A stretch of 64,000 nucleotides of DNA. It comes from Desulfobacula toluolica Tol2. Lineage in GTDB: Bacteria > Desulfobacterota > Desulfobacteria > Desulfobacterales > Desulfobacteraceae. The notes beneath the pieces were generated by a model. It did not search any database. It worked only from the letters and a program-made list of their open reading frames with translations, and had not been told where the DNA came from. The position numbers and the translations under genes were made by a program. This document shows, in pieces, positions 13,620 through 56,593 of the stretch. Numbering within the stretch: the stretch's first letter is position 1; each line of letters starts with the position of its first letter. The stretch is from positions 469,001 through 533,000 of the forward strand of contig NC_018645.1 of NCBI RefSeq assembly GCF_000307105.1, read 5' to 3'.

Positions 13620-13635
13620 ATTTTCTGTTCTCGCT

Positions 13636-36646: not shown

Positions 36647-36664
36647 AGCCTTGTAATGCTTCAT
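36643..36664. terminator. Short bidirectional hairpin between convergent genes
   Basis: ATGAAGC and GCTTCAT pair around an 8-base loop, exactly between the stops of the convergent phosphatase-fusion and receiver genes. It has seven base pairs and a weak T-run. Confidence 0.3.
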
Positions 36665-39034: not shown

Positions 39035-39050
39035 TTATCCTGTCATTTCC

Positions 39051-39977: not shown

Positions 39978-40111
39978 AACTCCTTTGTGATTGTTCTTTA
40001 CCCTTATGATGAATCAAGCATACCATAAGGATAATGGTTTGACTAAAATTAAATCAGCTAAACCGGTAATATAAGCATATTGCTAAAGGTATAGTGCTAT
40101 GGTGGCGCATG

Positions 40112-40876
40112 TTATAACAGAATAGATAACTTTTTGCTGATGCGGTCAGCAGCGGTTTTGGTTTGTTCGATAATGATCTGTATCTTTTTGTCTGACATGG
40201 ATGCTTTGAATCCAACAACCCAGATCGCAGGGGTATAAGCACCACACCTTTTAATAGGGGCTGCCGCCGCCCTGACGCCTAAAATATATTCTTCGTCATC
40301 AGTTGCAAAGCCGTTGTCTCGAACTTTTTCCAATTCTTTTGTATACTGATTTTTATCCATAATAGTATTAGGCGTGAATTTGACCAATGGATTTGAATCC
40401 AGGTATTTTTTTAAATCCTTTGGTTCCATCAAAGATAAAAAGGTTTTCCCGATGGCCCCGGCTACCAGTGGAAGGGATGTTCCAATAGGAGAGGATATTT
40501 TAAGATCTTTTCTGGATTCAACAATATCGATGATCGTTGCGCTGTCACCATTTCTGACCCCCAGGAAAACAGACTCCTGGCACTGCTCCATCAGTTCCTC
40601 CATGATGGGTTTGGCAATATTTTTAAAATCAATTCTTTCATAGGCTGCTTTTCCAAGTTCCATGAGCGTAATGCCGATGGTGTATCGTTTGGAAATGGAA
40701 TCACGGATGATGGCTCCCTGATCCTCTAAAGCAGCGGTAATGCCGTGAACCGTGCTTTTGCTTATGTCCAGACGGTTTGAAATTTCACTGATCCTTAATC
40801 CTTGAGAGCTTTTTGAGATGGCATCCAGAATAATAAAGGCCTTTTTAACAATTGGTGCTTGATATTTTTTTGTCAT
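40112..40876 (-). CDS. IclR-family transcriptional regulator, copy 1
   Basis: 254 residues. N-terminal winged HTH (LRISEISNRLDISKSTVHGI) and the IclR effector domain (FLGVRNGDSATIIDIVESR, LPLVAGAIGKTFLSL, GVRAAAAPI). It is about three-quarters identical by eye to copy 2 with no gaps, so the pair arose by duplication. A 17-bp spaced promoter (TTGTCA/TATATA) lies upstream, and an 18-bp operator-like motif overlaps the start. Related IclR proteins control aromatic, acid or aldehyde metabolism; the neighbouring AOR genes are the likely targets. Confidence 0.92.
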   Translation of the reverse strand: MTKKYQAPIVKKAFIILDAISKSSQGLRISEISNRLDISKSTVHGITAALEDQGAIIRDSISKRYTIGITLMELGKAAYERIDFKNIAKPIMEELMEQCQESVFLGVRNGDSATIIDIVESRKDLKISSPIGTSLPLVAGAIGKTFLSLMEPKDLKKYLDSNPLVKFTPNTIMDKNQYTKELEKVRDNGFATDDEEYILGVRAAAAPIKRCGAYTPAIWVVGFKASMSDKKIQIIIEQTKTAADRISKKLSILL

Positions 40877-40930
40877 TGTTCGCCATAATGAATTTTTATT
40901 TTATATAAACAGTTAAAATCAGCTTGACAA
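40876..40930 (-). promoter_or_regulatory. Promoter and IclR-type operator of IclR copy 1
   Basis: On the minus strand, TTGTCA (40930-40925), a 17-bp spacer and TATATA (40907-40902) form a good sigma70 promoter. The motif TTGTTCGCCATAATGAAT at 40876-40893 (plus strand) lies between it and the ATG, suited to autorepression. Confidence 0.55.
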
Positions 40931-41421
40931 TCGTATAATATTATTAACGGTACCCGTGGTCATTATTATGAATTTTAAAAAAAAGCAATAATTAATTATG
41001 AACACAAAAAATACAAAAGGGGCTATTGCCAAGATAGTCTGGGGAGATAACAAGGCTTTGAAGGGAAAAATCCCCATAGGATTCGGCTAAATGTTTAATT
41101 GCACCCAGTAATTGTCAATGCCATACGGATGCTGAAATAAATGCTTGCTGGAAGCTTATGATAGAGTTCAAAGGCTTTTGGGTGATGACTGATTTCGCAA
41201 AAAACAGTAAATAAATGTTCCCTTTTAGGGGGGGGGGCTGAGGCCATCGGCTCTGCGGTTGGAGTATCACTTGCTCTGACAAGAAAAAACGAGAAAAAAA
41301 TCAAAAACAGGTGGTTGACCGTGTGCGAGATTATCTTTTTCGTGAGGCAAAAGTGTGATTGAATGACGTAACAGCTATGAACCCTGGCTATGGTATTTTT
41401 GATGGCATCGGGGGTCCTGAA
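40931..41421. other. Intergenic region between IclR copies with possible decayed gene
   Basis: No supported gene. A 30-codon frame starts at 40998 (plus). Around 41235-41350, two frames give protein-like pieces (AIGSAVGVSLALTRKNEKK and VVDRVRDYLFREAKV) joined by a frameshift, suggesting a dead gene tail whose family I could not name. Confidence 0.35.
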
Positions 41422-42186
41422 TCAGAACTCGAGGGCCAGCTTTTTGCTGATTTTTTCAGCTGCAAACTGTGTCTGCTCGATAATGGCGGGCATCTTTTTA
41501 TCCGACATGGATGCTTTGAAACCGACAACCCAGAGGGCAGGAATGTGGGCGCCGTATTTTTTGATGGGGACGGCAACGGCACGGACACCGGATAGATATT
41601 CTTCATCATCCTTGGCAATGCATGACTGTCTGACCTTTTCAAGTTCTTTGACATACAGGTCGGAATCAATAATAGTGTTGGCGGTGAATTTTACCAGGGG
41701 GTTGGCATGCATATACTTTTCAAGATCATGGGGTTCCATCTGGGATAAGAACAGTTTGCCCACGGCACCGGCCATTAACGGCAGGGTAGTGCCGATGGGA
41801 GAACTGATTTTAAAATCCCTCCTGGATTCAACAATGTCGATCACAGTGACTTGCTCGCCGTTTCGGACGCCTAAAAAAACCGATTCCTTGCACAGCTCCA
41901 TCAGATCTTCCATGACCGGGCGTGCAATGTTTTTAAAATCGATCCGTTCATAGGCGGCTTTGCCCAGCGTCATAAGGGTAAGACCAATGGTGTATCTTTT
42001 GGATACCGAGTCCCGCACGACGGCACCCATATCTTCCAGGGCGGCCGTAATGCCGTGAACCGTACTTTTGCTGATGTCAAGACTTGAGGAAATCTCACTG
42101 ATTCGAAGTCCATGGGTGTTTTTAGATATGGCATCCAGGATGATAAATGCCTTTTTAACAATTGGGGCCTGATATTTTTTTGCCAT
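41422..42186 (-). CDS. IclR-family transcriptional regulator, copy 2
   Basis: 254 residues with the same layout as copy 1: HTH LRISEISSSLDISKSTVHGI and an effector domain with FLGVRNGEQVTVIDIVESR and LPLMAGAVGKLFLSQ. It lies just downstream of the terminator of the AOR operon on the same strand, and its start also overlaps the 18-bp motif. Differences are mostly in effector-domain surfaces, so the two proteins may sense different molecules or form mixed tetramers. Confidence 0.92.
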   Translation of the reverse strand: MAKKYQAPIVKKAFIILDAISKNTHGLRISEISSSLDISKSTVHGITAALEDMGAVVRDSVSKRYTIGLTLMTLGKAAYERIDFKNIARPVMEDLMELCKESVFLGVRNGEQVTVIDIVESRRDFKISSPIGTTLPLMAGAVGKLFLSQMEPHDLEKYMHANPLVKFTANTIIDSDLYVKELEKVRQSCIAKDDEEYLSGVRAVAVPIKKYGAHIPALWVVGFKASMSDKKMPAIIEQTQFAAEKISKKLALEF

Positions 42187-42203
42187 CGTTCACCATAATA
42201 ACT
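42186..42203 (-). promoter_or_regulatory. Operator-like motif at IclR copy 2
   Basis: TCGTTCACCATAATAACT, 15 of 18 bases identical to the 45163 copy, overlapping the first base of the start codon. It may be conserved simply through gene duplication, but copies near 45.1-45.3 kb lie outside the duplicated genes. Confidence 0.45.
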
Positions 42204-42228
42204 TGTCTAAATGATACCGAAATATAAA

Positions 42229-42261
42229 GGCCCCATTAAATTAAATCAACATAATGGGGCC
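42229..42261 (-). terminator. Terminator of the AOR operon
   Basis: GGCCCCATT and AATGGGGCC form a perfect nine-pair stem with a 15-base loop. On the minus strand TTTATATTT follows. It is 75 bp past the stop of the ferredoxin gene. Confidence 0.65.
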
Positions 42262-42335
42262 TTGTGTTTTTCAACCGCTCTCAAAAAATCTGATTAGGAT
42301 CGTTACAAAAAATCAAGTTGTTTTTGAGTCGGTCC

Positions 42336-42845
42336 TTAAGCAATATGTTCTTCAAGAAGCGCTGCCTGTTTCTTTACCGTTGACAGGCGAAACGCAGCCT
42401 CTCTTTTCTTCTCGATGCTGACATCGCCGCTGTCTACAAATTCAATTGCATTTACGTCACAGAATCTGACACACTGGGGGTCTCCGTCACAAAGATCGCA
42501 TTTGGCCACTTCTCCGTCGATGGCATTGTAGTTCATGGCACCGAAAGGACAGACCGAAACACAAGTCCGGCAGCCGATACAAACGTCGTAATCCACTTCG
42601 ACCCGATTCAGCTCTTCGTTGCGGGATATGGCGTTGACAGGGCAGGCGTTCAGGCAGGGCGCGTCCTGGCATTGTTGACAGGAGACAGGCACGTAAAGGC
42701 CCTCCATCTCCCACTTCATCACGCGGATGCGGCTTCGGCTCGGGTTGGATGCGCCGTGATGCTTCACCGCACAAACCTGTTCGCAAAGCCTGCATCCAGT
42801 GCATTTTTCATGATTGATCAATAAAACCTTGCTATTTGATTGCAT
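42336..42845 (-). CDS. Four-cluster ferredoxin, AOR partner (AorA/BamC-like)
   Basis: 169 residues with cysteine sets CTGCRLCEQVC, CQQCQDAPCLNACP, CIGCRTCVSVCP and CDLCDGDPQCVRFC, enough for up to four 4Fe-4S clusters. It follows the tungsten oxidoreductase gene on the same strand, so it should carry electrons to or from that enzyme, as in the Aor and Bam systems. No bamDEFGHI genes are seen. AAAAGGAGA precedes the ATG. Confidence 0.93.
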   Translation of the reverse strand: MQSNSKVLLINHEKCTGCRLCEQVCAVKHHGASNPSRSRIRVMKWEMEGLYVPVSCQQCQDAPCLNACPVNAISRNEELNRVEVDYDVCIGCRTCVSVCPFGAMNYNAIDGEVAKCDLCDGDPQCVRFCDVNAIEFVDSGDVSIEKKREAAFRLSTVKKQAALLEEHIA

Positions 42846-42875
42846 TGTGTTCTCCTTTTCTATACGGACGGCCTG

Positions 42876-44816
42876 TTACACCAGGTGTGAGGGTTCATTT
42901 TCAAGGCCAAGTTCCTTAAGCGTACTCTTTTTGGGAATACCGTTTTTGTCCAGCCCTTTGTGTTCGTAGAATTCATCGACCATGACATCGAATTTTTCTT
43001 TGATAATATATCTTCCGATGACGTCGATGGCCCCCCTCTTAGCAGGTTCGTCATGATAGCGATGATTCAGCACATCACCTTTTTCCGGGTCGTTACGGGT
43101 CAGCCCCTCCCGAAGGTTGAACATACGTTCGAGCATGTTGTTTCTTCTTGCGACTTCCCAGATCTCCTCGGGCGTCATCTCAATTCCCGTGTTCAAGTAA
43201 AGCACCGTGGGCCAGTTTTCGAAATTGGGCAGGGTGGCTCCCAGGAAAGTGGTGTGGTATTTGCAGATACCCAGACTGTCCACGGCCATGTAGCAGTTTT
43301 CCTGCCAAAAGACCTGCCAGGGTTTGCCAATATATTCGGTATGTTCTGAACTTAAGGGGCCGTCATAGGGAATCGGTGTGCTGTAGATTCTGCGCAGAAC
43401 CTCTTCCGGCAGGTGGTAGAGGTCTATGGCCGGCCGGCTTCTCAGATGGTCGGAACCTCTGGATCCTGTTGCAATATTGAGTGCAAGTGCGGGGGTGGCA
43501 CGTTCGTCCGAATGCAGGTTGGCCATACCCTTTACCTGGATGAGATAATCAAAGGAGTTTTTTCCCACATCCTTAGAGGCCGGGATACCGCCTTTGGCAA
43601 GAACATCGCCCAGCCATCCCTTGCGGTAGCAGATACGCTCGATCATTTCCAGGACAGCTTCATCGTTACCAAAGCGCAAATCAATGCCGTCTGTCTGCTC
43701 TTTGGTAAGAAGGCCTTCTTCAAAACATTCCATGGCCCATGCAATCATGCTGCCGGTTTCAAGGTTGTCCATACCGAACTGATCTACAAGATGGTTGCCC
43801 GCCAGAACTGTTTCCGCGCTCGTACACCCGACTTCTCCGCCAAAAGCACCCTGGGAAGTGTATTCCGGACCTTCGTCGTATTTACCTTTGTATTTTCCAG
43901 ACGGGATTTTATACTGGGCCCGGCAGTGAACCTGGCAGCCGAAGCAGCCTGCCATATGATAGGGTCCCATGGTTTCAGTGGCAATATCATCAATGCGTTC
44001 CGGTTCGATGTCATCGGCATATTCCAGCTGGTTGTATCTGAAATTTTCCGTCCTGACACCGCCCCAGGAATTGGTGGCGCCCCAGATAAAGGGTGTGCCC
44101 AAAGTGCCCTGGGTCTGGCTTACTTTTGCACCGGTGATCTGCTCGATGAACTTTTTGTTGTATTCCAGCGCTTCAACGGGATGGGTGATTTTGACGTCCA
44201 TGGTGCCGCGGCAGGCAACAGCCTTCAAGTTCTTGGATCCCATGACAGCACCCATACCGCTTCTGCCGCCGGCATTTTTGACACCGGTCATCACGTTGGC
44301 ATAGGCTACAAGATTCTCACCGGCAGGCCCAATGACAAGACTTTTCACTTCTTTGTCATTCAAATCATCATGAATGGCCCACTGGCTGTCGGTAACGGTT
44401 TTTCCCCAGATATTGGCCGCATCCCTGATTTCGATTTTACCATTATTTATATAAATGTAGCTTGGTTTTTCCGCTTTGCCTTTTATGACCAGGTGGTGGA
44501 ATCCAGCCCAGGCCATTTCAGGTGCAAAAAAACCACCCATGTTGCAGCTTCCCAGAAGTCCGGTAAGGGGTGATTTTGCCATGACATGGGTTCTGGCGGT
44601 GGCGGATGCTAAAGTGGCACACAGAATTCCTCCGCTGATGATCAGCGCGTTGTCGGGTCCAAGAGGATCACACCCCTGTTTCGTATGGTTGTATAGCAGG
44701 TAGGCGTCAAGGCCTCTGCCGCCCAGAAATTTTTTCCTAACTTCCATAGGTATGGGCTTTACCTCAATGTCGCCGGTGGTCAGATTGATATAGGCGATCT
44801 TTCTGTCTAATGCCAT
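42876..44816 (-). CDS. Tungsten aldehyde:ferredoxin oxidoreductase family catalytic subunit
   Basis: 646 residues. The AFOR N-domain has the pterin-binding signature FLGGRGLDAYLLYNH, GPAGENLVAYANVMTG and GGRSGMGAVMGSKNLKAV. The 4Fe-4S cysteines are in CFGCQVHC, with a fourth at GICKYHTTF. It is about the length of AorB and BamB. Aldehyde oxidation to acid, or reduction in reverse, is the usual role; a benzoyl-CoA-reductase role is less likely without the other Bam subunits. It sits between a zinc-ribbon protein and a ferredoxin, and divergent to a degenerate paralogue. Confidence 0.94.
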   Translation of the reverse strand: MALDRKIAYINLTTGDIEVKPIPMEVRKKFLGGRGLDAYLLYNHTKQGCDPLGPDNALIISGGILCATLASATARTHVMAKSPLTGLLGSCNMGGFFAPEMAWAGFHHLVIKGKAEKPSYIYINNGKIEIRDAANIWGKTVTDSQWAIHDDLNDKEVKSLVIGPAGENLVAYANVMTGVKNAGGRSGMGAVMGSKNLKAVACRGTMDVKITHPVEALEYNKKFIEQITGAKVSQTQGTLGTPFIWGATNSWGGVRTENFRYNQLEYADDIEPERIDDIATETMGPYHMAGCFGCQVHCRAQYKIPSGKYKGKYDEGPEYTSQGAFGGEVGCTSAETVLAGNHLVDQFGMDNLETGSMIAWAMECFEEGLLTKEQTDGIDLRFGNDEAVLEMIERICYRKGWLGDVLAKGGIPASKDVGKNSFDYLIQVKGMANLHSDERATPALALNIATGSRGSDHLRSRPAIDLYHLPEEVLRRIYSTPIPYDGPLSSEHTEYIGKPWQVFWQENCYMAVDSLGICKYHTTFLGATLPNFENWPTVLYLNTGIEMTPEEIWEVARRNNMLERMFNLREGLTRNDPEKGDVLNHRYHDEPAKRGAIDVIGRYIIKEKFDVMVDEFYEHKGLDKNGIPKKSTLKELGLENEPSHLV

Positions 44817-44817
44817 G

Positions 44818-45099
44818 TTATTTGCCCCCTTCTTTTTCAGCCGCTTTTAATTTAGACTCAGTAACTTCTTTGAAACGATCCTGTGCGATCTTTCTGTTAA
44901 CATCCCAGACTGGTCCCCTGATTCTCGGTAGTGTGGGATTGATCCAGAAAATACGAAACTCCATGCCGCAGGTTGCGCATTTGGCATGATCTGCGCCTTG
45001 CTCAGGAACGATGCGCTCCATGCAACTTGGGTTGTGGCACCTGACTTTACCGAATGTCCTGGTTTTCTGCAGACTTTCCGCGCCGGTTAATTCAGCCAT
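44818..45099 (-). CDS. Small zinc-ribbon protein before AOR
   Basis: 93 residues. Two CxxxxC/CxxC sites (CHNPSCMERIV and CATCGMEFRI) suggest a zinc ribbon, followed by a charged helical tail. The stop is one base before the AOR ATG. It is the first gene of the operon and starts behind AAAAGGAGAGG. It could be an assembly factor or structural subunit of the AOR complex. Confidence 0.85.
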   Translation of the reverse strand: MAELTGAESLQKTRTFGKVRCHNPSCMERIVPEQGADHAKCATCGMEFRIFWINPTLPRIRGPVWDVNRKIAQDRFKEVTESKLKAAEKEGGK

Positions 45100-45397
45100 T
45101 GTTACCCCTCTCCTTTTTTAGTTATCGAAAAAGTTCGCTATGATGTTTTTTGCCATCTGGACTTGTTCACCATAATAAATCTTTTTCCGGTTTTAGACCC
45201 TGTTTTTTTATCTTAAATATCAAATAATGAAACACTTTCAGACATCTGTTGCTGTTTTTTGCTTGACATCTGTGATGATCATCTGATATTTGATTATTCA
45301 ATATAGCGAACAAAACTTAACTTTGTCAAGTTTTAAAATTCAAATGGCTTGACAAATAATTTAAAAAGCTTTCCGTGATAAATGAGGAGGAAAGGAT
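45100..45397. promoter_or_regulatory. Divergent AOR control region with three operator-like motifs
   Basis: Contains motif copies at 45131-45148, 45163-45180 (plus orientation, facing the leftward AOR operon) and 45296-45313 (minus, facing the rightward operon). A rightward promoter TTGACA (45263-45268) with GATATT (45285-45290) precedes the third copy, and an inverted repeat TTTGTCAAG/CTTGACAAA lies at 45322-45356. Confidence 0.55.
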
Positions 45398-46495
45398 ATG
45401 ACGACGGACCGAAAAATTGCACTTGTGGACCTTGGCCGGTCTGAGGTGGAAACGTTTCCGATATCAATGGATCTTGAACAAAGATTCCTTGGCGGCAGTG
45501 GTGTTGCCACCTACCTTTTTTGCAAGCATGCGCCAAAAATGTGTGACCCGGGTTCCGCCGATAATATATGCATCGTCAGTGCGGGATATCTGAGCGGTAC
45601 TTTGAGTGCGCCCCTTGGGACGGCTGTGTTGACAAGCAAATCCGCTGCCACGGGTCTTATGGCCAGGGCGTGCGTAGACGGTCCCTTTGCAGCGCAAATG
45701 CGCCGGGCCGGTTTTGAACACCTGGTGTTGAAAGGACGGGCTGAGAATGAAACCTGCCTGCTGATCCAAGACGGCTGCATTGAGTTTAAAGAGATACCCG
45801 GTCTAAAGGATAACGGTTTGTCGGAACAGCGTGCAATGCTCCGTAAAGAGAACCCGGGAATTGAGGCACAGTTGGTCTGTATCCAAAAAAATGGAGACGG
45901 TCTGTTTTTTGCCGCAGATGCCTGTTTGGACTTATCCAAGGACGTGGAGGGTATGGAACCGGACAAAAGCGGCGTGGCGGAAGTCTTGGCGGCAAAAAAC
46001 GTCGTGACCCTGGCCTGCTGCGGTACAATAGAATTGGAAGTAAAAGATCCCGAAGGCATTATTGCCTACGAGAAAAAACATCTTGAAAACATTGATGAAT
46101 CGCTGATCCAGAACGACCCGGAGCCGGTCATCATTGAGGGTCCGGCAGGATCCGTTAACCTGACGGAAATAAAACAGACCATTGAGCAGTGTCTTGGACT
46201 GCCGTCAGGAACAAAGAACTGTACCAACAGCAGTGAACTCAACTTTCAAATCGCGGCTGACAGGATTTTGCTCAATACCGGACTTGCTCTGGATGAAGAT
46301 GAATTAAAAGAGATTGCCTACCGCTGTATCGCCATGGAACGTATCTATAACCTAGGCGAGGGGATTACCTCAAAGCAAGGGCAGCCGGCCGAGGATTACG
46401 GGGAAAACGAATGGACCCGGGAGGCTGTGTTAAAAAAAGAAAAGGTGTTTGAGCCGCTTCGGATTGATGATCTGTGGGGTCGGTTAAAATCTTAA
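45398..46495 (+). CDS. AOR-like protein without catalytic core
   Basis: 365 residues behind a strong AGGAGGAAAGG site. Residues 1-215 align along their length with the AFOR N-domain of the neighbouring AOR (DRKIALVDLGRSEVETFPI, FLGGSGVATYLFCKH, GFEHLVLKGRAE). The last 90 residues resemble the AOR C-terminal helices (ELKEIAYRCIAMERIYNLGEG). About 280 residues between are missing, including the CxxCxxxC cluster and pterin-contact segments. The frame is clean, so it may be a retained non-catalytic subunit or regulator rather than a dead gene. It heads the operon with ferredoxins and MetVF. Confidence 0.8.
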   Translation: MTTDRKIALVDLGRSEVETFPISMDLEQRFLGGSGVATYLFCKHAPKMCDPGSADNICIVSAGYLSGTLSAPLGTAVLTSKSAATGLMARACVDGPFAAQMRRAGFEHLVLKGRAENETCLLIQDGCIEFKEIPGLKDNGLSEQRAMLRKENPGIEAQLVCIQKNGDGLFFAADACLDLSKDVEGMEPDKSGVAEVLAAKNVVTLACCGTIELEVKDPEGIIAYEKKHLENIDESLIQNDPEPVIIEGPAGSVNLTEIKQTIEQCLGLPSGTKNCTNSSELNFQIAADRILLNTGLALDEDELKEIAYRCIAMERIYNLGEGITSKQGQPAEDYGENEWTREAVLKKEKVFEPLRIDDLWGRLKS

Positions 46496-46534
46496 GAATC
46501 GTTATAAATTAATATATAAGAATGATGAGAGTCC

Positions 46535-47011
46535 ATGACCATGAAAATACTGATATCAGATCCAAATAAATGCAACGGTTGCAGGATGTGCCAGACTGCC
46601 TGTGCAATCGTGAAAGCCGGGGTCTGCAACCCGGAAAAATCCCGTATTCAAGTGATGGAGATGGATGAATGCGACCGGTATCTGCCCCTGGTCTGCCAGA
46701 ATTGTGAAGACGCACCCTGCATTGCCGCATGTCCCAAAGAGGCCATCAGCAGAATTTATGACCCGGTGATGCGGACCGTCATTGATTACAATAAATGTGT
46801 GGGATGCCGGATGTGTCTTAACGCCTGTAGTTTCGGTACCATCGGGTTTGATGAGGAGCGGGGGCGGCCGTTCAAATGTGATCTTTGTGGGGGAGATCCG
46901 CTGTGCGTTCAATTTTGCGAGACAGGGGCATTAACATTAAAGGATCCCACCATGATTCAATACGACCAGGCAAGGGTATCCGCGTTAAAACGCACCGGTA
47001 TGAGGAGATGA
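46535..47011 (+). CDS. Four-cluster ferredoxin, second operon
   Basis: 158 residues with CNGCRMCQTAC, CQNCEDAPCIAACP, CVGCRMCLNAC and CDLCGGDPLCVQFC. It is a paralogue of the ferredoxin that partners AOR on the other strand. A second ATG lies six bases downstream. It likely supplies electrons to the downstream folate enzymes or the AOR-like protein. Confidence 0.92.
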   Translation: MTMKILISDPNKCNGCRMCQTACAIVKAGVCNPEKSRIQVMEMDECDRYLPLVCQNCEDAPCIAACPKEAISRIYDPVMRTVIDYNKCVGCRMCLNACSFGTIGFDEERGRPFKCDLCGGDPLCVQFCETGALTLKDPTMIQYDQARVSALKRTGMRR

Positions 47012-47052
47012 ATCTTTGATAAATAATAACAGAACAGACGGAGTCAAACGTC

Positions 47053-47460
47053 ATGCGCTATTTTCAAGTAAACGATCAGTGTAACGGGTGCCTGGCTTGT
47101 GTCCAGAACTGCCCGGCAAATGCATTGCGCGCGGAAGATGGAGGTGCAAACCGCGTACTTTCCCATAATATGGCACGCTGTGCGCGCTGCGGCAACTGCT
47201 ATCGTATCTGTCCCCAGGGAGCCATAGAATTTCAATTTATGCTCGAGAACGGCTGGGATGAGGTAAAATCCCTTGAACTTGTCTACTGCAGCGTTTGTGG
47301 CGTTCCAATATATACAGTGGATTACAGGCGGACATTATCTGAGAAACTGGGCAAGCCGAGTGAACCGGTTTGTTCCAAACATCGGGATGAGGTGGCCCGG
47401 GCTGCAAAGGCCCATTTTCTGAAAGGGCGGTCCCCGGACAAGGGAGGTGTAGTAATATGA
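47053..47460 (+). CDS. Two-cluster ferredoxin with C-terminal extension
   Basis: 135 residues. CNGCLACVQNCP and CARCGNCYRICPQ bind two 4Fe-4S clusters, followed by about 70 residues with another CSVCG and a lone Cys that may form a zinc site. Overlaps the next gene by four bases (ATGA), so both are co-translated. HdrA- or NuoI-like electron carriage toward MetV is plausible. Confidence 0.88.
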   Translation: MRYFQVNDQCNGCLACVQNCPANALRAEDGGANRVLSHNMARCARCGNCYRICPQGAIEFQFMLENGWDEVKSLELVYCSVCGVPIYTVDYRRTLSEKLGKPSEPVCSKHRDEVARAAKAHFLKGRSPDKGGVVI

Positions 47461-48128
47461 TCGTCGGCAATCTTAAACCATTGGAAGAAATTACCGCAAG
47501 CATAGAGGATTATAAAAATATTTTTGTCCTGGGCTGCGGCGGGTGCGTTTCCGTCTGCCTTACCGGAGGAGACAGACAGGCCCACGAGTTGGCAACGGAT
47601 CTGGATCATATCCGGCATTACAAAAACGGTAAACCCAAATTTTGTGTGCATACTGTTGAGCGTCAATGTGAACCGGACTGGCTGAAGGAGTATCTGACAA
47701 TTCCCGAAAATACGGATGCAGTGCTGTCTCTGGCCTGCGGGGCAGGTGTGCAGACAATGGCGTCAGTGTTCGAGTCCCTGCCCGTTATCCCGGCCATTAA
47801 TACAACGTTCATGGGTTCTAATGTGGAGCCGGGTGTCTGGCAGGAGATGTGTCAGGGCTGCGGGGACTGTATGCTGGGTCATACAGGAGGGATATGTCCC
47901 ATCTCCAGGTGTGCGAAAACCCTTTTTAACGGACCCTGCGGCGGTTCCAGCAATGGAAGCTGCGAGGTTAATAAAGATACACCCTGTGCCTGGGCCATGA
48001 TTTACTACAAGCTTAAAGCGACCGATCAGCTCCATTACCTGATGAAAGTCAGGGAGCCGAAAAACTGGCAGCCTGCCGGAAGCGCTGGGCCGAGAAAACT
48101 GGTGCGGCCTTTTAATAAACCGCTTTAA
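47457..48128 (+). CDS. metV: MetV-type methylenetetrahydrofolate reductase partner subunit
   Basis: 223 residues. Early GCGGCVSVC and the C-terminal cysteine-rich block (CQGCGDCMLGHTGG, CPISRCAKTL, GPCGGSSNGSCEV) match the MetV / MTHFR C-terminal family, which binds Fe-S or zinc. In acetogens and sulfate reducers MetV pairs with MetF and ferredoxin- or NADH-linked proteins. The MetF gene follows after the EutA-like gene, which is an unusual interruption. Confidence 0.9.
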   Translation: MIVGNLKPLEEITASIEDYKNIFVLGCGGCVSVCLTGGDRQAHELATDLDHIRHYKNGKPKFCVHTVERQCEPDWLKEYLTIPENTDAVLSLACGAGVQTMASVFESLPVIPAINTTFMGSNVEPGVWQEMCQGCGDCMLGHTGGICPISRCAKTLFNGPCGGSSNGSCEVNKDTPCAWAMIYYKLKATDQLHYLMKVREPKNWQPAGSAGPRKLVRPFNKPL

Positions 48129-48138
48129 GGTAAAGTCC

Positions 48139-49581
48139 ATGGAAATTAATGAGATAGAACTGCTCAGTGTCGGGGTTGATGTGGGATCTTCCACAAGCCA
48201 TCTGGCTTTTTCAAGCCTGCTGCTTAAAAGAGACGAAACATCCCCCACCCGGCGGTTTCATGTTGTTGACCGCAAGGTCGTTTATGAGGGAGAAATTATC
48301 GATACCCCATTAGAGGATCGGGATACCATAGATGTTGAGCGGTTGACCCGGTTTTTTAAAGAGGAATACAGCCGTGCGGGAATCCATCAGGATGATGTCA
48401 AAACCGGGGCTGTGATCATCACCGGGGAAACAGCCAAAAAGCAGAACGCGGAAGCGATTGCTGCCGCCTTGTCCAGCGATGCAGGTAAATTTGTCGCCGC
48501 AACTGCGGGGCCCAATTTTGAGAGCCTGATTGCGGCGATGGGTTCAGGTGCTGCCGACCGCTCGAAGCAAACCGGTAAAACTATACTTTCCTGTGATATT
48601 GGCGGCGGAACATCCAATATGGCCATCTCCTGCAACGGGCAGGTCGTATCCACCAGCAGTATTGCTGTGGGCGGCCGTCTGTTAGCAGTGGATGCCCAAA
48701 AAAAGATCCTGCGGACCAGTTATGCTGCCAAAAAGGTGATGACCCATCTGGGGGTACACTATGATGTGGGAGATGTGATCCCTGAAAAATGGCTTGAAAA
48801 AATTACTTCCGTACTGGCCCAAACTCTCGTAGAGGTCATGAATGGGTCTGCTGTTTCAGTTCTTGCCAAAGATCTGATGGTGACCGACGACCTGGACTTT
48901 TCAAGAAAAATCGATGAATATACCTTTTCAGGCGGTGTCTCTGAATTGCTGTACGGCTGCAATGGGTATCAGCATAACGATATCGGTTCATACCTTGCCG
49001 CTGAAATTAAGACGCTGTTCCCAAAGCTTTCCGGACCGGTCATTGAACTTGAAAACAAGATAAGGGCGACGGTTATAGGTGCCGGTGCCCATACATTATC
49101 CATATCGGGTTCCTCGGGATTCATGGATGACCAGCTTAAGTTTCCCATGTGGAACGTGCCGGTGCTAAGGGTTGACGTGGAACAGGACAAATTAAGCCAT
49201 GCCCATATCAAATCTGAAATTGAAAGGTCTTTGAAGCGGTTTGATCTGTCCGAGGGGGCCGAGACCGTGGCGTTCTACTTTAAGGGTCTCACCCACAATT
49301 CCTACCAGAAGCTGGTAATGTTTGGTAAAGCCATTGAGTCGGCACTGGCAAATTCAATCGGTAAAAACATTCCCATTATTCTCATTTTTCGGGCTGATAT
49401 TGCCTGTGGTGTGGGAAATGTCATCCGCCGGGAAACAGGCCTTAAAACTAACCTGCTCACCCTGGATGAACTGGATCTTAAGGATGGTGACTGGATCGAC
49501 ATCGGCGAACCGCTGGTGGACAAACAGGTGTTCCCGGTGACCGTCAAGTCACTGATTTTCCATGACACCCGGAAAGTATGA
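48139..49581 (+). CDS. EutA-like ASKHA reactivase
   Basis: 480 residues. Actin-fold ATPase motifs are seen: phosphate-1 GVDVGSSTSHLAF, phosphate-2 SCDIGGGTSNMA and an adenosine-region GAGAHTLSISGSSGF. Overall it matches the ethanolamine ammonia-lyase reactivating factor. There is no eutBC in the window. In family knowledge, EutA exchanges damaged adenosylcobalamin using ATP. Here it sits between metV and metF, so it could reactivate another B12- or Fe-S enzyme of one-carbon metabolism. The client is unknown. Confidence 0.88.
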   Translation: MEINEIELLSVGVDVGSSTSHLAFSSLLLKRDETSPTRRFHVVDRKVVYEGEIIDTPLEDRDTIDVERLTRFFKEEYSRAGIHQDDVKTGAVIITGETAKKQNAEAIAAALSSDAGKFVAATAGPNFESLIAAMGSGAADRSKQTGKTILSCDIGGGTSNMAISCNGQVVSTSSIAVGGRLLAVDAQKKILRTSYAAKKVMTHLGVHYDVGDVIPEKWLEKITSVLAQTLVEVMNGSAVSVLAKDLMVTDDLDFSRKIDEYTFSGGVSELLYGCNGYQHNDIGSYLAAEIKTLFPKLSGPVIELENKIRATVIGAGAHTLSISGSSGFMDDQLKFPMWNVPVLRVDVEQDKLSHAHIKSEIERSLKRFDLSEGAETVAFYFKGLTHNSYQKLVMFGKAIESALANSIGKNIPIILIFRADIACGVGNVIRRETGLKTNLLTLDELDLKDGDWIDIGEPLVDKQVFPVTVKSLIFHDTRKV

Positions 49582-49645
49582 TGCGGTCTGTTTATTTACC
49601 GGCAAAGCTTGACAGCGTATAGATAAAGAACAAGGAGAGAACAAT

Positions 49646-50581
49646 ATGAGTGAGCTTAAATCAGGCAGTAATTTGGAAAAGGTTCTAAATGCGGGCCATT
49701 TCGCTTTCACCGGAGAATGCGGTCCCCCAAAAGGTGCCAATGTCGACCATTTAAATGAAAAATTAAGTCACCTTGTGGGGTATGTGGATGCCGTCAACAT
49801 GACGGACAACCAGACAGCCGTGGTCCGCATGTCTTCCATTGCCGGCTCTGTTTTGATGATGGAAAAGGGGCTTGAACCCAATTTTCAGATGGTCTGCCGG
49901 GACAGGAACCGCCTGGCCATGATGAGTGATATTCTAGGCGCTTATGCCATGGGTATCCGGAATATGCTGTGTCTTTCCGGCGACCACACAAGTTTCGGGA
50001 ATCATCCCGAGGCAAAAGGTGTCCATGATATTGATTCCATGCAGCTGATTGCCATGGTGAAGAAAATGCGGGACGAGGGCAAATTTTTAAATGGCGAGGA
50101 TATTGACGTACCGCCGAAACTGTTTATCGGGGCCGCTGCCAACCCGTTTGCGGATCCTTATGAATACCGGGTGTTCAGGCTTGCCAATAAAATAAAAGCA
50201 GGTGTGGATTTTGTCCAGACACAATGCATTTTCAATATGGAAAAATTCCGTGATTTCATGAAACAGGCCGTGGATATGGGGCTTCATGAAAAGTGCTATA
50301 TCCTGGCTGGTGTCACACCCATGAAAAGTGCTCCTATGGCCAATTTCATGTCCAAGTTTGTTCCGGGTATGGATATCCCCGAACATTTGATCAAACGCCT
50401 CAGGGGCGTGCCCAAAAAAGACCAGCCAGAGGAAGGTATCAAGTTTGCGCTGGAACAGATCGAAGAATTCAAAGAGATGGAAGGTGTGGCAGGTGTCCAT
50501 CTGATGGCCATTGAATGGGAACACAGGGTGCCTGAAATTGCAGAAAGGGCAAATGTACTGCCCCGACCGGTTGTTGAATAG
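49646..50581 (+). CDS. metF: Methylenetetrahydrofolate reductase
   Basis: 311 residues forming the MTHFR TIM barrel: [19 protein letters not shown], then [25 protein letters not shown], and [20 protein letters not shown] with [23 protein letters not shown] precedes the ATG. It makes methyl-THF from methylene-THF or the reverse, with electrons from MetV/ferredoxin in this type of operon. This links the operon to Wood-Ljungdahl or methyl-transfer chemistry. Confidence 0.94.
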
Positions 50582-50586
50582 AAACC

Positions 50587-50988
50587 ATGGACTCGCAAGG
50601 TTATTACGAAACCCTGAAGGTCAGCCGCAATGCAACGGATGAACAGATAAAAAAGGCTTACCGGAAACTGGCCAGGCAGTTTCATCCCGATGTAAACAGT
50701 GATGAGGGGGCTGAAACCCGGTTCAAATTAATCGGGGAAGCATATGAGGTTTTAAGAGATGAGGGGAAACGGCGGATCTATGACATGACCGGATTTAAAC
50801 GGTTCGGCACTTGGGCCGCTTCCAGGTCTGACGGTCAAAACGGAATGCATCAATGTTCCGGTGGTATGAACGGCGGCAAATGCAGTGCTTTTGAAACGCT
50901 TTTCAGAAGACGGTCCGGGGTCAGGAAAAATCGGACTGGAACCGGTCACAATGAATTTCTAAAGGCTGACGGACAGGCGACATCTTAA
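50587..50988 (+). CDS. Short J-domain (DnaJ N-terminal) protein
   Basis: 133 residues: J-domain at 1-70 with the HPD motif ([16 protein letters not shown]) needed to stimulate Hsp70 ATPase. The tail is Gly/Lys-rich with a lone Cys or two and no zinc-finger or substrate domain. It starts five bases after metF. Possibly recruits Hsp70 for assembly of the operon's metalloproteins; that role is inferred. Confidence 0.9.
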
Positions 50989-51221
50989 AATCCGGGCGCA
51001 CTATTTTCAGAATTAAAACAGAAAATGCAGCCCCTGGCTCACTGAGTCCCAGAAAATCTTCGATACCCCTGCCGATTCGAAAATTATTATTACAGGCCTA
51101 TGGTATTAACCTGCCGCGTCTTGGTTCACAGCATGGGCGTATGAGTAAATAACAGTCAAGGATGGTCGCGATCTTTGCATATTAAGTTGAGCTAATTCTT
51201 CCATAAGGCAGCAAGTTATTC

Positions 51222-51264
51222 TATAATGCACGTTCCGGTATTTTACCGGAGCGCGCTTTTTTTT
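51222..51264 (+). terminator. Strong terminator overlapping a promoter-like box
   Basis: GTTCCGGTA and TACCGGAGC form a stem (loop TTT) followed by eight Ts at 51257-51264. It ends the metF/dnaJ transcript. TATAAT at 51222-51227 directly precedes it. The next gene starts at 51278, so its start codon follows the T-run by 13 bases; attenuation is possible. Confidence 0.7.
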
Positions 51265-51277
51265 GTGGAAAGGAAAA

Positions 51278-52684
51278 ATGAATTCAAAAAAGAAATTTGT
51301 TATCATCACGGGATACTTTAAAGGAGAGTCCTACGGTCTTTTAGGTCCACAGATGGCAGCCACCGTTATATCTGATAACAGTGAGTATGAGGCGCTTGTC
51401 GTAGGAGTGACCAATGAAGATGACAAAACAGATCTGATCACGGCACTGGAAAATCATTTTAGCGGAACCCGGATGGTCATTGGGTTTTCAACCCTTGGCG
51501 GAAGACCGGATCTGTTTGATCTGGCAGGAGAGCTTAAAGATAAGGGTGCGGTCACTATTCTGGCCGGGCCACAGGCCAATGTCGATTTTAAAGGGGAAGT
51601 GGGTCACGACCGGTTTGACCATCGCTTTAAGGGAATGTCGGACCGATTTACCTTTGCCATACAGGGACCTGTCCAGCAGATCCTGCCCATCCTGGAGAGC
51701 GGTCTCGATAGTGATATTTCAGAATTTGATGGTGTCCTGTCCAGGAATAAAGATGGGCAGATAAAGGAGAATCGTCCTGCCCCATGGGAGGATCAATGGC
51801 TGTCCAAGGTTGACTGGACCAATATTTACCGGTTAAAGGGAACATCCTTTGCCCGGATGCCGATTACCTGCGGCCAGGTACTCCAGCAGATCGGATGCCC
51901 CCATGCTGCAAAAGAAAGAAAAATACAGATTGATTATCCAGCCGATCTTGCCAATGAGACAGGGCCGAAACATGTGACCATCGCCCAGAAGGGGTGCAGC
52001 TTCTGTGATGTGGCCCAGGACAAAGGATTTATGGGGGCGGTGGGTGAAGAAGCTGTTAAATCCCAGATGGCATGTTTGCCCGAACAGGCCGACGGCAGCA
52101 GGGTCGCATTTGAACTGATCAATGAAAGCCCTTTGCCCAAACTTGATCGTGTCATGGAACTTGCCTGTGAGTGCAGCCTGGAGCTGTCCCAGATTAATTT
52201 GACCCTGCGGGCGGATTATTTTCTGAAGGGACAGGAAAATCTGAAGAACACCCTTGAAAAAGCCCAAAAGAAAAACATCCGGATACTGCTGGCCTCCATC
52301 GGATTTGAATCTTTTGACGATACCATTTTGAAAAATATGAACAAAGGTGTAACCCGTCAAATGAACCTGGATACCATTAAAACGATCCGGGATTTGAAGC
52401 CAAAGTTCCCCTGTCATTTTGGATATCTTAAAGAGGAGGGGGCCAATCACGGATTTATTCACCCAACCCCTTGGGACACACCGGATATCTCCAAGGAAGT
52501 TAACCTTACCATTGACATGTACCAGCTGGCCATGGATATTCTTCCCCCTCACAGCACACCGCTGATTATCCACCATGCCTCCGGTCTTGCCGACTGGATA
52601 CGTCAGATCGAACAACAGGAAAACATTCAGTTTGAAAGGGTCGGCACCACCATCGCCTGGTGGCAACATAAACGTTTGGTGTGA
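51278..52684 (+). CDS. Radical-SAM-like protein with B12-binding-like N-domain
   Basis: About 468 residues from the ATG at 51278 with AAAGGA in front. The first 170 residues look like a B12-binding/Rossmann domain (GYFKGESYGLLGPQMAA, VIGFSTLGGRPDL, VTILAGPQAN). A TIM-barrel-like part follows with ELINESPLPKLD, ILLASIGFESFDDTILKNMNKG and HFGYLKEEGAN, as in Elp3/MiaB-like radical SAM folds. The canonical CxxxCxxC is not clear: only IGCPHAA and, 30 residues on, GCSFC are present. It may bind the cluster differently or have lost catalysis. Confidence 0.75.
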   Translation: MNSKKKFVIITGYFKGESYGLLGPQMAATVISDNSEYEALVVGVTNEDDKTDLITALENHFSGTRMVIGFSTLGGRPDLFDLAGELKDKGAVTILAGPQANVDFKGEVGHDRFDHRFKGMSDRFTFAIQGPVQQILPILESGLDSDISEFDGVLSRNKDGQIKENRPAPWEDQWLSKVDWTNIYRLKGTSFARMPITCGQVLQQIGCPHAAKERKIQIDYPADLANETGPKHVTIAQKGCSFCDVAQDKGFMGAVGEEAVKSQMACLPEQADGSRVAFELINESPLPKLDRVMELACECSLELSQINLTLRADYFLKGQENLKNTLEKAQKKNIRILLASIGFESFDDTILKNMNKGVTRQMNLDTIKTIRDLKPKFPCHFGYLKEEGANHGFIHPTPWDTPDISKEVNLTIDMYQLAMDILPPHSTPLIIHHASGLADWIRQIEQQENIQFERVGTTIAWWQHKRLV

Positions 52685-52686
52685 CC

Positions 52687-52881
52687 ATGGATGTGCTGAT
52701 AACGATTATTGCCAGTTTTGTCATGATTTTGCAAAACATCATGGCCATACTGATCCTGCAATTCTACAACAGACAGGTTGGACCGGTATCTTTCTGGAGG
52801 GCGATTAAAAAGGCTGTGGGGAACCCGGTTATTTTATCCGCTTTGATCAATAAAAGGAAAAGGGGTCAAATCTTTAGTTAA
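52687..52881 (+). CDS. Small single-helix membrane protein
   Basis: About 64 residues from the ATG two bases after the previous stop. One N-terminal membrane helix (VLITIIASFVMILQNIMAIL) is followed by a basic soluble tail (FWRAIKKAVGNP). It may anchor the radical-SAM-like protein at the membrane. No family recognised. Confidence 0.55.
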   Translation: MDVLITIIASFVMILQNIMAILILQFYNRQVGPVSFWRAIKKAVGNPVILSALINKRKRGQIFS

Positions 52882-52911
52882 CTCTTGTTGGATGATCAGC
52901 AAAAAATCGAT

Positions 52912-53193
52912 TTAGTCTCTAAGCTGTTCAACGGAAAGCCCCATGGCCAAAGCCAGTTTTTCAAGGGTTGAAGTTTTGTTTTCCTGCTCGGTTCTTTCCA
53001 TCTGGGACAATGCCGCCTGTGTGATCCCGGCTTTCCCTGCCACCTGTTTCTGGGTCATCCCTAAGTGAACCCGCCAGGCTTTGATCAGGTTGTATCCCTT
53101 TTTGATAACAAGGCCCACCACTTCATGGGGTACGGTGTCATCATTTAAAAAAACTTTCTGCTCAACCTGTTGATTGCTTCCTGTTATGATCCG
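52912..53193 (-). pseudogene. XRE-type antitoxin, N-terminally truncated
   Basis: The C-terminal XRE helix-turn-helix is intact (LGMTQKQVAGKAGITQAALS, LEKLALAMGLSVEQL). The frame continues upstream through DDTVPHEVVGL, typical of longer antitoxins, but meets a stop near 53193 where an IS66 remnant begins. A GTG at 53121 could still give a 69-residue HTH protein. No toxin partner gene is visible. Confidence 0.65.
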
Positions 53194-53196
53194 TCA

Positions 53197-53391
53197 ATGG
53201 AAAAAGTTCCTCCCAAAAGTCTTCTTGGCAAGGCGATCCATTACACTCTCAGCCAATGACATAGGCTCATCCAATATACGACCGACGGAATCATCAGGCC
53301 TGATAACAATCTGGTTGAAAATGCCATCCGACCTTTTGTGGTCGGACGAAAGAATTGGCTTTTCTCGGACACCGTTCAGGTTGCCCGGAAA
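53197..53391 (+). pseudogene. IS66-family transposase C-terminal remnant
   Basis: Reads GKAIHYTLSQ, then a TGA where IS66 transposases have Trp, then HRLIQY, GIIRPDNNLVENAIRPF and VVGRKNWLFSD. This is the conserved C-terminal block of TnpC, with a TGG-to-TGA nonsense change. Both ends are missing. It appears to have truncated the antitoxin gene beside it. Confidence 0.75.
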
Positions 53392-53576
53392 AGAATATGG
53401 GGTGATAACAGGGGCAAGGTGTCGACTGGAGGCCGGAAAATTTAACAGGTGTAAAAAAGTTGTGGTGCTGAACAGATCAAAGGGTGAAAAGTGGTCGAAA
53501 AAATGACTTTCACACAAAAAGATCACACAATCTTGAAATGATGATTTTGGAAAATTTCGAGAGAGGTTGTGTTTAA

Positions 53577-53653
<77 letters not shown>

Positions 53654-53715
53654 ATCTTTTTGTGTTGGATACAAGCAGGCTAACTATCATTTCTGAATAA
53701 TAAAAGCAAGAAATT

Positions 53716-54423
53716 TTATGGCTTTGGGTTGTTTTTTTTAAAATAGAGATCAATGCTTTTTGAAATGAGTGCTGCATATTCAGTAAGAATGTTTTCGATT
53801 TCATCCGGGTGTTGGGGCAGTGTTAAAACGGATAAAGGTTCAATCAGTATGGCTGGCATGGTTGCGCCTTCAAGAAGAAGGATCGGTGCCCCGGTTGAGA
53901 AAAAACGAATCGCGTTTTTGTTGGCGGAAAAAATACTGCAGAAAGAAGTGATTGCTTTTTTGCTTTCAGCTTGATGAAGCAGTGGGTGTGATTTCCATTT
54001 GTTGTCTTTAATATGGGGTGGGTGTTTGTAAGATTCAGGTGGGTCAAAATAGTAAAAAAAAGCTGAATATTTGTTTGTTTGATGTAAATGGATGCTGATA
54101 AAAAGGTCTGCCTTGTTTTTGTTGGCTAAAAAAATTCTTTCCCGGGCAGATATTGTAATGTTTTGGGTTCTTGTTAAAAGAACATTGTATCGGTTTTCAA
54201 GCTGTTGGGCGATTTTTTCAGCAAGCTGCAAGGTGATGGTTTTTTCGTTTATTCCACTGGAAGAGACAATTCCGTTTTGAGTTCCCCCGTGGCCTGGATC
54301 AATCACGATAATACGTTGTTTTGTTTGAATTGCTTTATTGCCAAATCCGATGCCTGGGGGTATTATACACGATAGAATGATGATAAATGCTAAAACCTTT
54401 TCTTTGGCCAATTTTCTTGACAC
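53716..54423 (-). CDS. N-acetylmuramoyl-L-alanine amidase (Amidase_3)
   Basis: 235 residues with an N-terminal signal/anchor. Zinc-site motifs of the Amidase_3 fold are present: IDPGHGGTQNG, the Glu in GINEKTITLQLAEKI, and ISIHLHQTN. It cleaves the amide bond between muramic acid and the stem peptide in the periplasm. Compared with AmiC it lacks the AMIN domain. The C-terminal catalytic Glu region is around AILIEPLSVL. Confidence 0.9.
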   Translation of the reverse strand: MSRKLAKEKVLAFIIILSCIIPPGIGFGNKAIQTKQRIIVIDPGHGGTQNGIVSSSGINEKTITLQLAEKIAQQLENRYNVLLTRTQNITISARERIFLANKNKADLFISIHLHQTNKYSAFFYYFDPPESYKHPPHIKDNKWKSHPLLHQAESKKAITSFCSIFSANKNAIRFFSTGAPILLLEGATMPAILIEPLSVLTLPQHPDEIENILTEYAALISKSIDLYFKKNNPKP

Positions 54424-54486
54424 CTTTATGTATAAGGGTTATCTTAATAAACTTTGTGAGATATGTGTTTTATATATTACATTTTT

Positions 54487-54516
54487 TTGATTATTTGAAG
54501 CAGTGTTTAATATATA
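54487..54516 (+). promoter_or_regulatory. Possible promoter for tig
   Basis: TTGATT (54487-54492), an 18-bp spacer and TATATA (54511-54516), 37 bp before the trigger-factor ATG. Confidence 0.35.
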
Positions 54517-54552
54517 AATCAATTTTAATAGAAATGAATACAGGACGGAAAA

Positions 54553-55908: not shown

Positions 55909-55969
55909 TCATTTAACGTGCAACCTGCATTAAGAAAATGAAAACTAAATAATTATAAGGAGTTGAATT

Positions 55970-56593
55970 TTGCCTCTAATTCCAATGGTTGTTGAGCAAA
56001 GCAACAGGGGGGAGCGTGCATATGATATCTATTCACGCCTTTTAAAGGATCGAATCATTTTTATCGGATCTGCTATTGATGATGAGATTGCCAATCTTAT
56101 TGTTGCCCAGTTCTTGTTTCTGGAATCAGAAGATCCTGAAAAGGACATCAGTTTTTATATTAATTCACCAGGTGGTGTTGTAACGGCAGGGATGGCCATC
56201 TATGATACAATGCAGTATATAAAACCGGATGTGGCTACCGTATGTATCGGACAGGCCGCCAGTATGGGGGCGCTTTTACTGACGGCAGGTACAAAAGGGA
56301 AAAGATTTGCCCTGCCCAATTCCAGAATAATGATTCATCAGCCACTTGGCGGAACACAGGGACAAGCCACTGATATTAAAATTCAGGCCAATGAGATTTT
56401 AAGGATGAAAGATATTTTAAATGAGATTTTATCCACTCATACAGGTCAGGATATTGAAAAAGTATCTGCAGATACGGAAAGAGATTTTTTCATGTCAGCA
56501 ACAGAAGCCATGAAATATGGTATTGTGGACAAGGTGGTTACTGACAGAAGCGAGTTGGAAGAAGACACAGATAACGACGCTTCAAAGGAGTAA
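55970..56593 (+). CDS. clpP: ATP-dependent Clp protease proteolytic subunit
   Basis: 207 residues with a TTG start behind AAGGAG. Catalytic Ser in [11 protein letters not shown], His in [15 protein letters not shown], and Asp downstream. Full length. One-base overlap with the clpX region (TAATG). Confidence 0.97.

Follow-up and report, generated by a model that had tools for sequence, protein, structure and literature searches.

We found that the EutA-family gene at 48139–49581 of a 64,000-nucleotide stretch of the Desulfobacula toluolica Tol2 genome (contig NC_018645.1, positions 469,001 to 533,000; hereafter the window, whose own numbering is used throughout) lies in a conserved neighborhood of a tungsten-type aldehyde:ferredoxin oxidoreductase (AOR), and that it is tied by its distribution to MetV, a protein of the MetV-MetF (MetVF) type of methylenetetrahydrofolate reductase (MTHFR), rather than to the radical-S-adenosylmethionine-like (radical-SAM-like) gene nearby. 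The core of the neighborhood is made up of an IclR-type regulator, the 93-residue protein zr93, AOR and the polyferredoxin FdA, often with the radical-SAM-like gene, and EutA together with the ferredoxin-MetV pair FdC-MetV is an add-on to it. Proteins of the EutA family repair the B12 enzyme of ethanolamine breakdown, to our knowledge their one established job. A EutA that occurs without EutB beside a tungsten AOR and MetV hints at a job of this repair protein that has not been described. We tentatively read the locus, with somewhat less than even confidence, as an IclR-regulated tungsten AOR unit that ferredoxins connect to MetVF and in which EutA would be a service factor driven by ATP.

The genes form two divergent groups that start at the spacer 45100–45397. 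A preliminary description of this DNA, made from its letters alone, had listed them between 42336 and 52881, and every gene that it named was recovered in place by open reading frame (ORF) and Pfam scans. The main features are as follows.

40112–40876, minus strand: IclR-type regulator 1 (Pfam IclR_C, 135 bits)
41422–42186, minus strand: IclR-type regulator 2 (Pfam IclR_C, 123 bits)
42336–42845, minus strand: FdA, a polyferredoxin (several Fer4 families)
42876–44816, minus strand: full-length tungsten-type AOR (AFOR_N 251 bits and AFOR_C 344 bits, both above cut-off)
44818–45099, minus strand: zr93, a 93-residue CxxC protein with no Pfam family, zinc-ribbon-like by inspection only
45398–46495, plus strand: AORt, a hollowed AOR paralogue (AFOR_N; AFOR_C 24.4 bits, below the cut-off of 27)
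46535–47011, plus strand: FdB, a second polyferredoxin of the FdA type (Fer4 families, gene order)
47053–47460, plus strand: FdC, a ferredoxin with an extra cysteine-containing C-terminus, directly 5' of metV (Fer4 families)
47457–48128, plus strand: MetV (PF12225, 124 bits)
48139–49581, plus strand: EutA of the EutB-free clade (PF06277, 443 bits, profile positions 2–475 of 475)
49646–50581, plus strand: MetF (PF02219, 138 bits)
50587–50988, plus strand: J-domain protein (PF00226, 92 bits)
51278 (an ATG)–52684, plus strand: radical-SAM-like protein; its predicted fold is that of cobalamin-dependent radical SAM enzymes, its cysteine spacing odd

On the minus strand zr93, the complete AOR and FdA are followed by the two IclR genes; on the plus strand AORt, FdB, FdC, metV, EutA, metF and the J-domain gene are tightly packed, and a terminator-like hairpin, the radical-SAM-like gene and a 66-residue ORF come after them. 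With the IclR genes the cluster is wider than 42336–52881, and an 88–93% homologue of IclR regulator 2 adjoins FdA-AOR in two other loci (L058, L059). The set first described is real, and the locus is broader than had been noted: the AOR operon with IclR, often joined by the radical-SAM-like gene, is the commoner core.

The neighborhood was compared across 80 EutA loci, drawn from 107 confirmed relatives and comprising 52 bacterial by label (one of them Calditrichota) and 28 archaeal. As many of the loci lie on short contigs from metagenome bins, absences are weak evidence; the names of recurrent neighbor families rest on scans of one or two members each. In the 52 bacterial loci we counted, within 10.5 kb of EutA, FdA in 37, AOR in 35, zr93 in 35, IclR in 29, MetV in 21, the radical-SAM-like gene in 17, a 335-residue ferredoxin protein in 11, MetF in 7, AORt in 5 and the J-domain gene in 4; the J-domain protein is thus probably not a fixed part of the unit. 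At least one of nine partner genes lay within this distance in 48 of the 52, more than by chance; linkage is conserved, and this check leaves the preliminary description standing. The four loci with none are L066, L078, L080 and L113, and at L066 (the Olavius Delta 4 bin, G508; L229) an AOR unit and a divergent cassette of dead AOR2, FdB, FdC and MetV lie on the same contig, 40–50 kb from EutA. Where at least about 9 kb was available on both flanks (12 loci), AOR was present in 10 and MetV in 9. No partner gene was seen in the ORF survey of the 28 archaeal EutA loci, and the Calditrichota-labeled genome had no AOR at the search threshold. A few bacterial loci carry a branched-chain-type ATP-binding cassette transporter and an AMP-binding ligase upstream (LivH-type 5/52, ligase 4/52).

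At genome level, AOR (E ≤ 1e-180) was found in 38 of 47 EutA-bearing bacterial entries vs 49 of 395 genomes of a phylum sample. G309 and G482 share the same coordinates, so that these 47 entries are at most 46 genomes, as the 31 clade-bearing entries discussed below are at most 30. Two of the nine AOR-negative entries (G329, G528) have AOR pieces beside EutA. In the phylum sample, where scoring for EutA was limited to the four best first-look candidates of each genome, the clade was present in six of the 395 genomes, five of which have AOR.

The division into core and add-on follows from gene counts in 24 AOR loci without the EutA clade, which we chose from 20 of the 44 phylum-sample genomes of this kind and 4 of the 15 in the genus (one further region, L226, shows no AOR). 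These loci held FdA in 24 cases, zr93 in 23, IclR in 18, the radical-SAM-like gene in 12, MetV in one and MetF in none. MetV was present in 15 of 35 AOR loci with EutA vs 1 of the 24 without (Fisher p = 0.0009, uncorrected for relatedness). The radical-SAM-like gene showed no such difference (13/35 vs 12/24, p = 0.42). The bacterial rows are mutually related, so that Fisher values overstate their independence.

By sequence comparison, the window EutA belongs to a clade of Desulfobacterota-type bacteria and Asgard archaea that is separate from the EutA of ethanolamine breakdown. It is single-copy in its own genome, is by family membership an ATPase of the actin/Hsp70-like type, and reached the cut-off of none of the four NCBIfam EutA models (at best 395 bits vs 598). 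Eight other EutA-family genes from the same bacterial family were compared with it, seven of them 33–38% and one 26% identical. With the seven rows from eut-type loci it shares conserved residues that include G12/D14/G16, D153–G157 and G314–G316, which we take to be the nucleotide loops. A 454–467-residue ORF lies immediately 3' of EutA in five of those seven loci, with an EutB match there in G059 and G020, and EutC and a shell protein adjoin EutA in L014. We also observed one genome (G276; L049, L055, L056) with four EutA-family matches and no EutB match, two of the four beside a cupin-domain protein.

Tree building used 51 bacterial EutA rows, namely the window and 50 loci (L064 and the Calditrichota-labeled L115 were dropped as too short). 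In a first tree their clade lies within a 60-row group (support 100) that includes nine archaeal rows, eight of them labeled Heimdallarchaeota. In a second tree, from which six long-branch rows were omitted, the bacterial rows formed one clade with support 100/100. A single group of all 28 archaeal rows was rejected (approximately unbiased test, p = 0.000185), and the bacterial rows nest among the archaeal ones. If the root lies on the eut-type side, the topology would fit a transfer of EutA from archaea to bacteria, the archaea being nearly all metagenome bins.

The preliminary description had left room for a tie to eutB elsewhere in the genome, and this tie was largely absent. An EutB profile search of the window's own genome, a single contig of 5,197,905 bases (5.2 Mb), gave no match, and among the 31 genome entries bearing the clade only G038 and G329 have EutB. 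The contig of the G038 EutB gene (L227) shows no EutA, and no EutA other than the AOR-linked one was found in that genome. In viral contigs, 12 pattern-matching stretches included no EutA relative, and the 25 records from a plasmid collection were all below 60% identity (the ten listed matches are 33–37% identical, six with a EutA annotation and four lacking a listed gene). A PDB sequence search with the EutA alignment returned MreB only. The EutA fold model was weak (pTM 0.51), and its 50 listed matches, all with a TM-score below 0.3 on the query, would indicate no more than an ATPase of the ASKHA kind.

The full-length AOR has Pyrococcus AOR (1aor) as its best match among solved structures, and its C291, C294, C298 and C518 align with cysteines of 1aor that are presumably the cluster cysteines. 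By these matches it belongs to the tungsten AOR family. The divergent "AOR-like protein" of the preliminary description is indeed an AOR paralogue, but a hollowed one: AORt keeps the AFOR_N domain and a short C-terminal part, about 300 middle residues are gone, and all six positions checked (C291, C294, C298, E318, H457 and C518) are lost. In L076 and L093 a complete AOR2 occupies its place, ahead of FdA2, FdC and MetV (with E318 replaced by D in L076), and in G508 a 531-residue AOR stands there that has likewise lost all six positions. AORt thus most likely descends from a genuine second AOR. The ratio of nonsynonymous to synonymous substitution rates (dN/dS), from comparison with two Desulfobacula bins (bins of this genus are the closest named relatives), was 0.30–0.37 for AORt and 0.08–0.20 for AOR, MetV, MetF, EutA and the radical-SAM-like gene (the last from one bin). 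It was 0.21–0.22 for FdB, 0.19 and 0.78 for FdC, and 0.40 for the J-domain gene (one bin), so that by this measure AORt is under weaker constraint than most of its neighbors. FdA is taken here as the electron-transfer subunit of AOR. FdC adjoins MetV in 20 of 22 listed loci, and is preceded by FdA or FdB in 12 of these.

PF12225 (MetV) and PF02219 (MetF) both scored above cut-off in one operon. Scores against curated equivalog models made for other MTHFR types stayed below cut-off, with 79 bits against 294 for TIGR00676 and 206 against 453 for PRK08645. The window's genome holds 11 MTHFR-family matches. MetV-MetF pairs were seen in three other regions that were read (L215, beside glutamate-synthase-like proteins, L216 and L217), and L212 and L213 have MetF-like genes of a more distant kind next to large FAD/iron-sulfur proteins. 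L212 also encodes, at 13546–14514, a MetF paralogue 83% identical to that of the window, with no MetV beside it in the ORF survey. In this organism it thus seems common for MetF-type genes to have varied redox partners, and the locus would be one more case.

In the reading that we favor, IclR would regulate the zr93-AOR-FdA unit, in which AOR would most likely oxidize an aldehyde to its acid. Aldehyde oxidation provides a reductant strong enough for the methylene-tetrahydrofolate (methylene-THF) step. The low-potential electrons would pass from FdA or FdB to FdC, MetV and the MetF flavin, and MetF would reduce methylene-THF to methyl-THF, while AORt, from a complete second AOR, could act as a non-catalytic scaffold. 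EutA would be an ATPase serving the MetV-linked branch without ethanolamine ammonia-lyase and, by analogy with its family, might spend ATP on releasing a cofactor that is damaged or misbound in a client. Our first guess for this client would be a cobamide enzyme elsewhere in the genome acting on a methyl group; AOR itself is the other candidate, and the radical-SAM-like protein is disfavored. The more specific version, in which the clade serves a relay from tungsten enzyme to MetVF with a dead AOR as scaffold, its gene having passed from Heimdallarchaeota-like archaea to sulfate-reducing-type bacteria and joined the AOR unit there, we regard as doubtful. In vitro, enzymes of the MetVF type are reported to accept electrons from reduced ferredoxin (PMC8515935, PMC8760232).

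Several observations weigh against this reading. In PMC8760232 it is argued that ferredoxin cannot be the in vivo donor of MetVF, and the physiological donor is disputed. MetF occurs in only 7 of the 52 loci, and therefore MetV may pass its electrons elsewhere; with 11 MTHFR-family matches in the genome, the pair at this locus need not be the folate enzyme in use. The redox-linked one-carbon module of the preliminary description is thus supported as far as AOR, ferredoxins and MetV go, and its one-carbon step is the weakest part. AOR was absent at threshold from 9 of the 47 EutA-bearing bacterial entries, and a search of 16 Asgard genomes gave AORs of no more than 37% identity. The numbers in the phylum sample (AOR in 49 and the EutA clade in 6 of 395 genomes) mean that AOR does not need EutA. 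G038 and G329 have EutB and no EutA was found there besides the one of the AOR-linked clade, so that service of this EutA to EutB is possible in those genomes. Finally, the relaxed dN/dS of AORt and a further deletion in AORt of L058 and L060 mean that it may simply be a decaying gene.

The radical-SAM-like protein is the local B12 candidate. The preliminary description had noted that the locus lacks a corrinoid protein, and locus scans found none, with the caveat that the predicted fold of this protein resembles cobalamin-dependent radical SAM enzymes. Its AlphaFold model (pLDDT 80) gave Foldseek matches to OxsB (E = 1.5e-11, TM-score 0.57 on the query), MgmA (E = 6.7e-9), TokK and MiaB. A PDB sequence search returned nothing below E 0.4, PF04055 scored 25.4 bits (below the 29.5 cut-off), and a PF02310 profile search gave no match at the gene. 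Across 26 homologues, fragments included, there are three conserved cysteine columns only, at 206, 239 and 242 (counted from the residue that follows the ATG at 51278), two of them conserved in 26/26 and the third in 25/25 with that column filled. About 31–38 residues separate the first two, followed by Cx2C, and there is no CxxxCxxC motif. A three-cysteine cluster with odd spacing is possible, as is loss of radical SAM chemistry. We had at first favored this protein as the EutA client; its distribution, which does not track EutA, speaks against that. Neighbors of 470–500 residues were considered as MttB-type methyltransferases or corrinoid proteins, an idea that we dropped when scans of some of them revealed kinases, a GAF protein, a Ras-type GTPase and other proteins. 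The "dedicated repair ATPase" role proposed for EutA is accordingly unproven.

Among the other explanations, we judge it unlikely that EutA uses ATP to mature or repair tungsten AOR itself (or AORt/AOR2) by acting on its tungsten-pterin cofactor. The commonest companions of EutA are AOR and its small partners (AOR in 35/52 loci and 38/47 entries), and families of the MoaA, MoaD/ThiS, MoeB/ThiF, MoeA and MobB kinds lie near some AOR/EutA loci: a ThiS/MoaD-type 90-residue gene was found in 20 of 74 compared bacterial loci, ThiF/MoeB-type genes in 10, MobB-type in 6, MoaA-type in 5 and MoeA-type in 3, neighbors that would fit a pterin-cofactor enzyme. However, AOR is commoner without EutA than with it, so that EutA is not required for its maturation, EutA tracks MetV more specifically, and among the 52 EutA loci ThiF is present in only 5 and MoaA in only 3. 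We consider it less likely again that EutA reactivates or reloads the cobalamin of the radical-SAM-like protein, which would modify AOR as MgmA, according to its structure entry title the glutamine methylase of methyl-coenzyme M reductase, does its own substrate. The predicted fold matches to the cobalamin-dependent OxsB and MgmA point this way, and the radical-SAM-like gene adjoins AOR-FdA with or without EutA. In a genus sample of 26 genomes, with AOR in 19, this gene in 17 and EutA in 6, AOR and the gene occur together in 15 (Fisher p = 0.028). Modification of AOR by this protein is a fair guess by analogy, no more. The same gene fails to follow EutA in the locus comparison above; it is present in 24 of the 47 EutA-bearing bacterial entries and in none of 10 Asgard genomes, G309 (97% complete) has EutA and AOR without it, and with no PF02310 match its cobalamin binding is a prediction from the fold.

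A reversed route, in which MetVF oxidizes methyl-THF from demethylation of aromatic methoxy groups, AOR removes the matching aldehyde and EutA serves the corrinoid demethylase, seems improbable to us. D. toluolica is a degrader of aromatic compounds and its genome has 17 B12-binding-domain matches, but Pfam scans of the locus found no demethylase or corrinoid protein, and the reducing power of methyl-THF does not suffice for ferredoxin unless a further partner takes part. Least of all do we expect that EutA serves an ethanolamine ammonia-lyase encoded elsewhere and stands beside AOR by accident, which would be very surprising. Ethanolamine breakdown does yield acetaldehyde, an AOR-type substrate, and G038 and G329 combine EutB with this EutA clade; against this, EutB had no match in 29 of the 31 clade-bearing entries, and none in the genome of the window, for which this explanation already falls if the EutB profile search is complete.

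The remaining features of the region are listed below.

36998–39977, minus strand: sensor kinase and PhnD-like binding protein, possibly associated (Pfam scan)
45263–45360, both directions, between the operons: divergent promoter-like sites, consensus matches only
51231–51253, plus strand: terminator-like hairpin between the J-domain and radical-SAM-like genes
52681–52881, plus strand: 66-residue ORF, a relic of an AEC-type transporter

A kinase/binding-protein pair of the same families stands directly after AOR-FdA-radical-SAM in G053 (L222:11526–14520), its binding protein 79% identical. Promoter-like sites numbered 23 in the region vs a mean of 14.0 in shuffles, and terminator-like sites 11 vs 13.8, i.e., no commoner than chance. 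The 66-residue ORF had been called a small membrane protein; it is instead a relic, as it aligns only to residues 136–183 of a 314-residue AEC-type (Mem_trans) gene, which in G041 (L225:5720–6664) sits 3' of the radical-SAM gene. An Rfam scan of 36000–56000 found tRNA only, and PADLOC gave no match for the four locus proteins tested.

In the openly licensed literature we found no paper joining EutA with AOR, MetV, MTHFR or Asgard archaea, nor one joining AOR with IclR in sulfate reducers or with cobalamin-dependent radical SAM; the parts are of known kinds and their combination looks new. An EutA clade apparently without an ethanolamine job offers a testable entry to other roles of this ATPase family, and it is common to Asgard archaea and Desulfobacterota-type bacteria, with a tie to tungsten aldehyde oxidation in the bacteria. 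The locus is also a candidate for a direct link from aldehyde oxidation to the methyl branch of one-carbon metabolism, where the MetVF donor is disputed (PMC8760232). The hollowed AOR and the radical-SAM-like protein with its odd cysteine spacing are separate leads.

Compared with known systems, the window EutA resembles that of ethanolamine ammonia-lyase in its full-length PF06277 match and common conserved residues, and differs in its 33–38% identity to the seven eut-type rows, the absence of EutB here, its own clade and its scores below the NCBIfam cut-offs. The predicted fold of the radical-SAM-like protein is that of OxsB, MgmA and TokK, cobalamin-dependent enzymes that have CxxxCxxC, whereas here three cysteines are spaced otherwise. 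The AOR matches that of AorABC of Aromatoleum aromaticum (8c0z) in sequence (247 bits) and has a polyferredoxin gene beside it, presumably AorA-like; a gene of the AorC FAD/NAD type is missing from the locus, and a MetV branch stands instead. The WOR1 complex of Eubacterium and Acetomicrobium (PMC12096430) is likewise an AOR-type enzyme predicted to be wired to another redox module, HydABC-like there and MetV here. With the MetVF-type MTHFR of acetogens (Clostridium ljungdahlii) the locus shares MetV with PF12225 and MetF with PF02219; what sets it apart is the presence of polyferredoxins, a hollowed AOR and EutA in the operon, and a MetF that often lies outside the locus.

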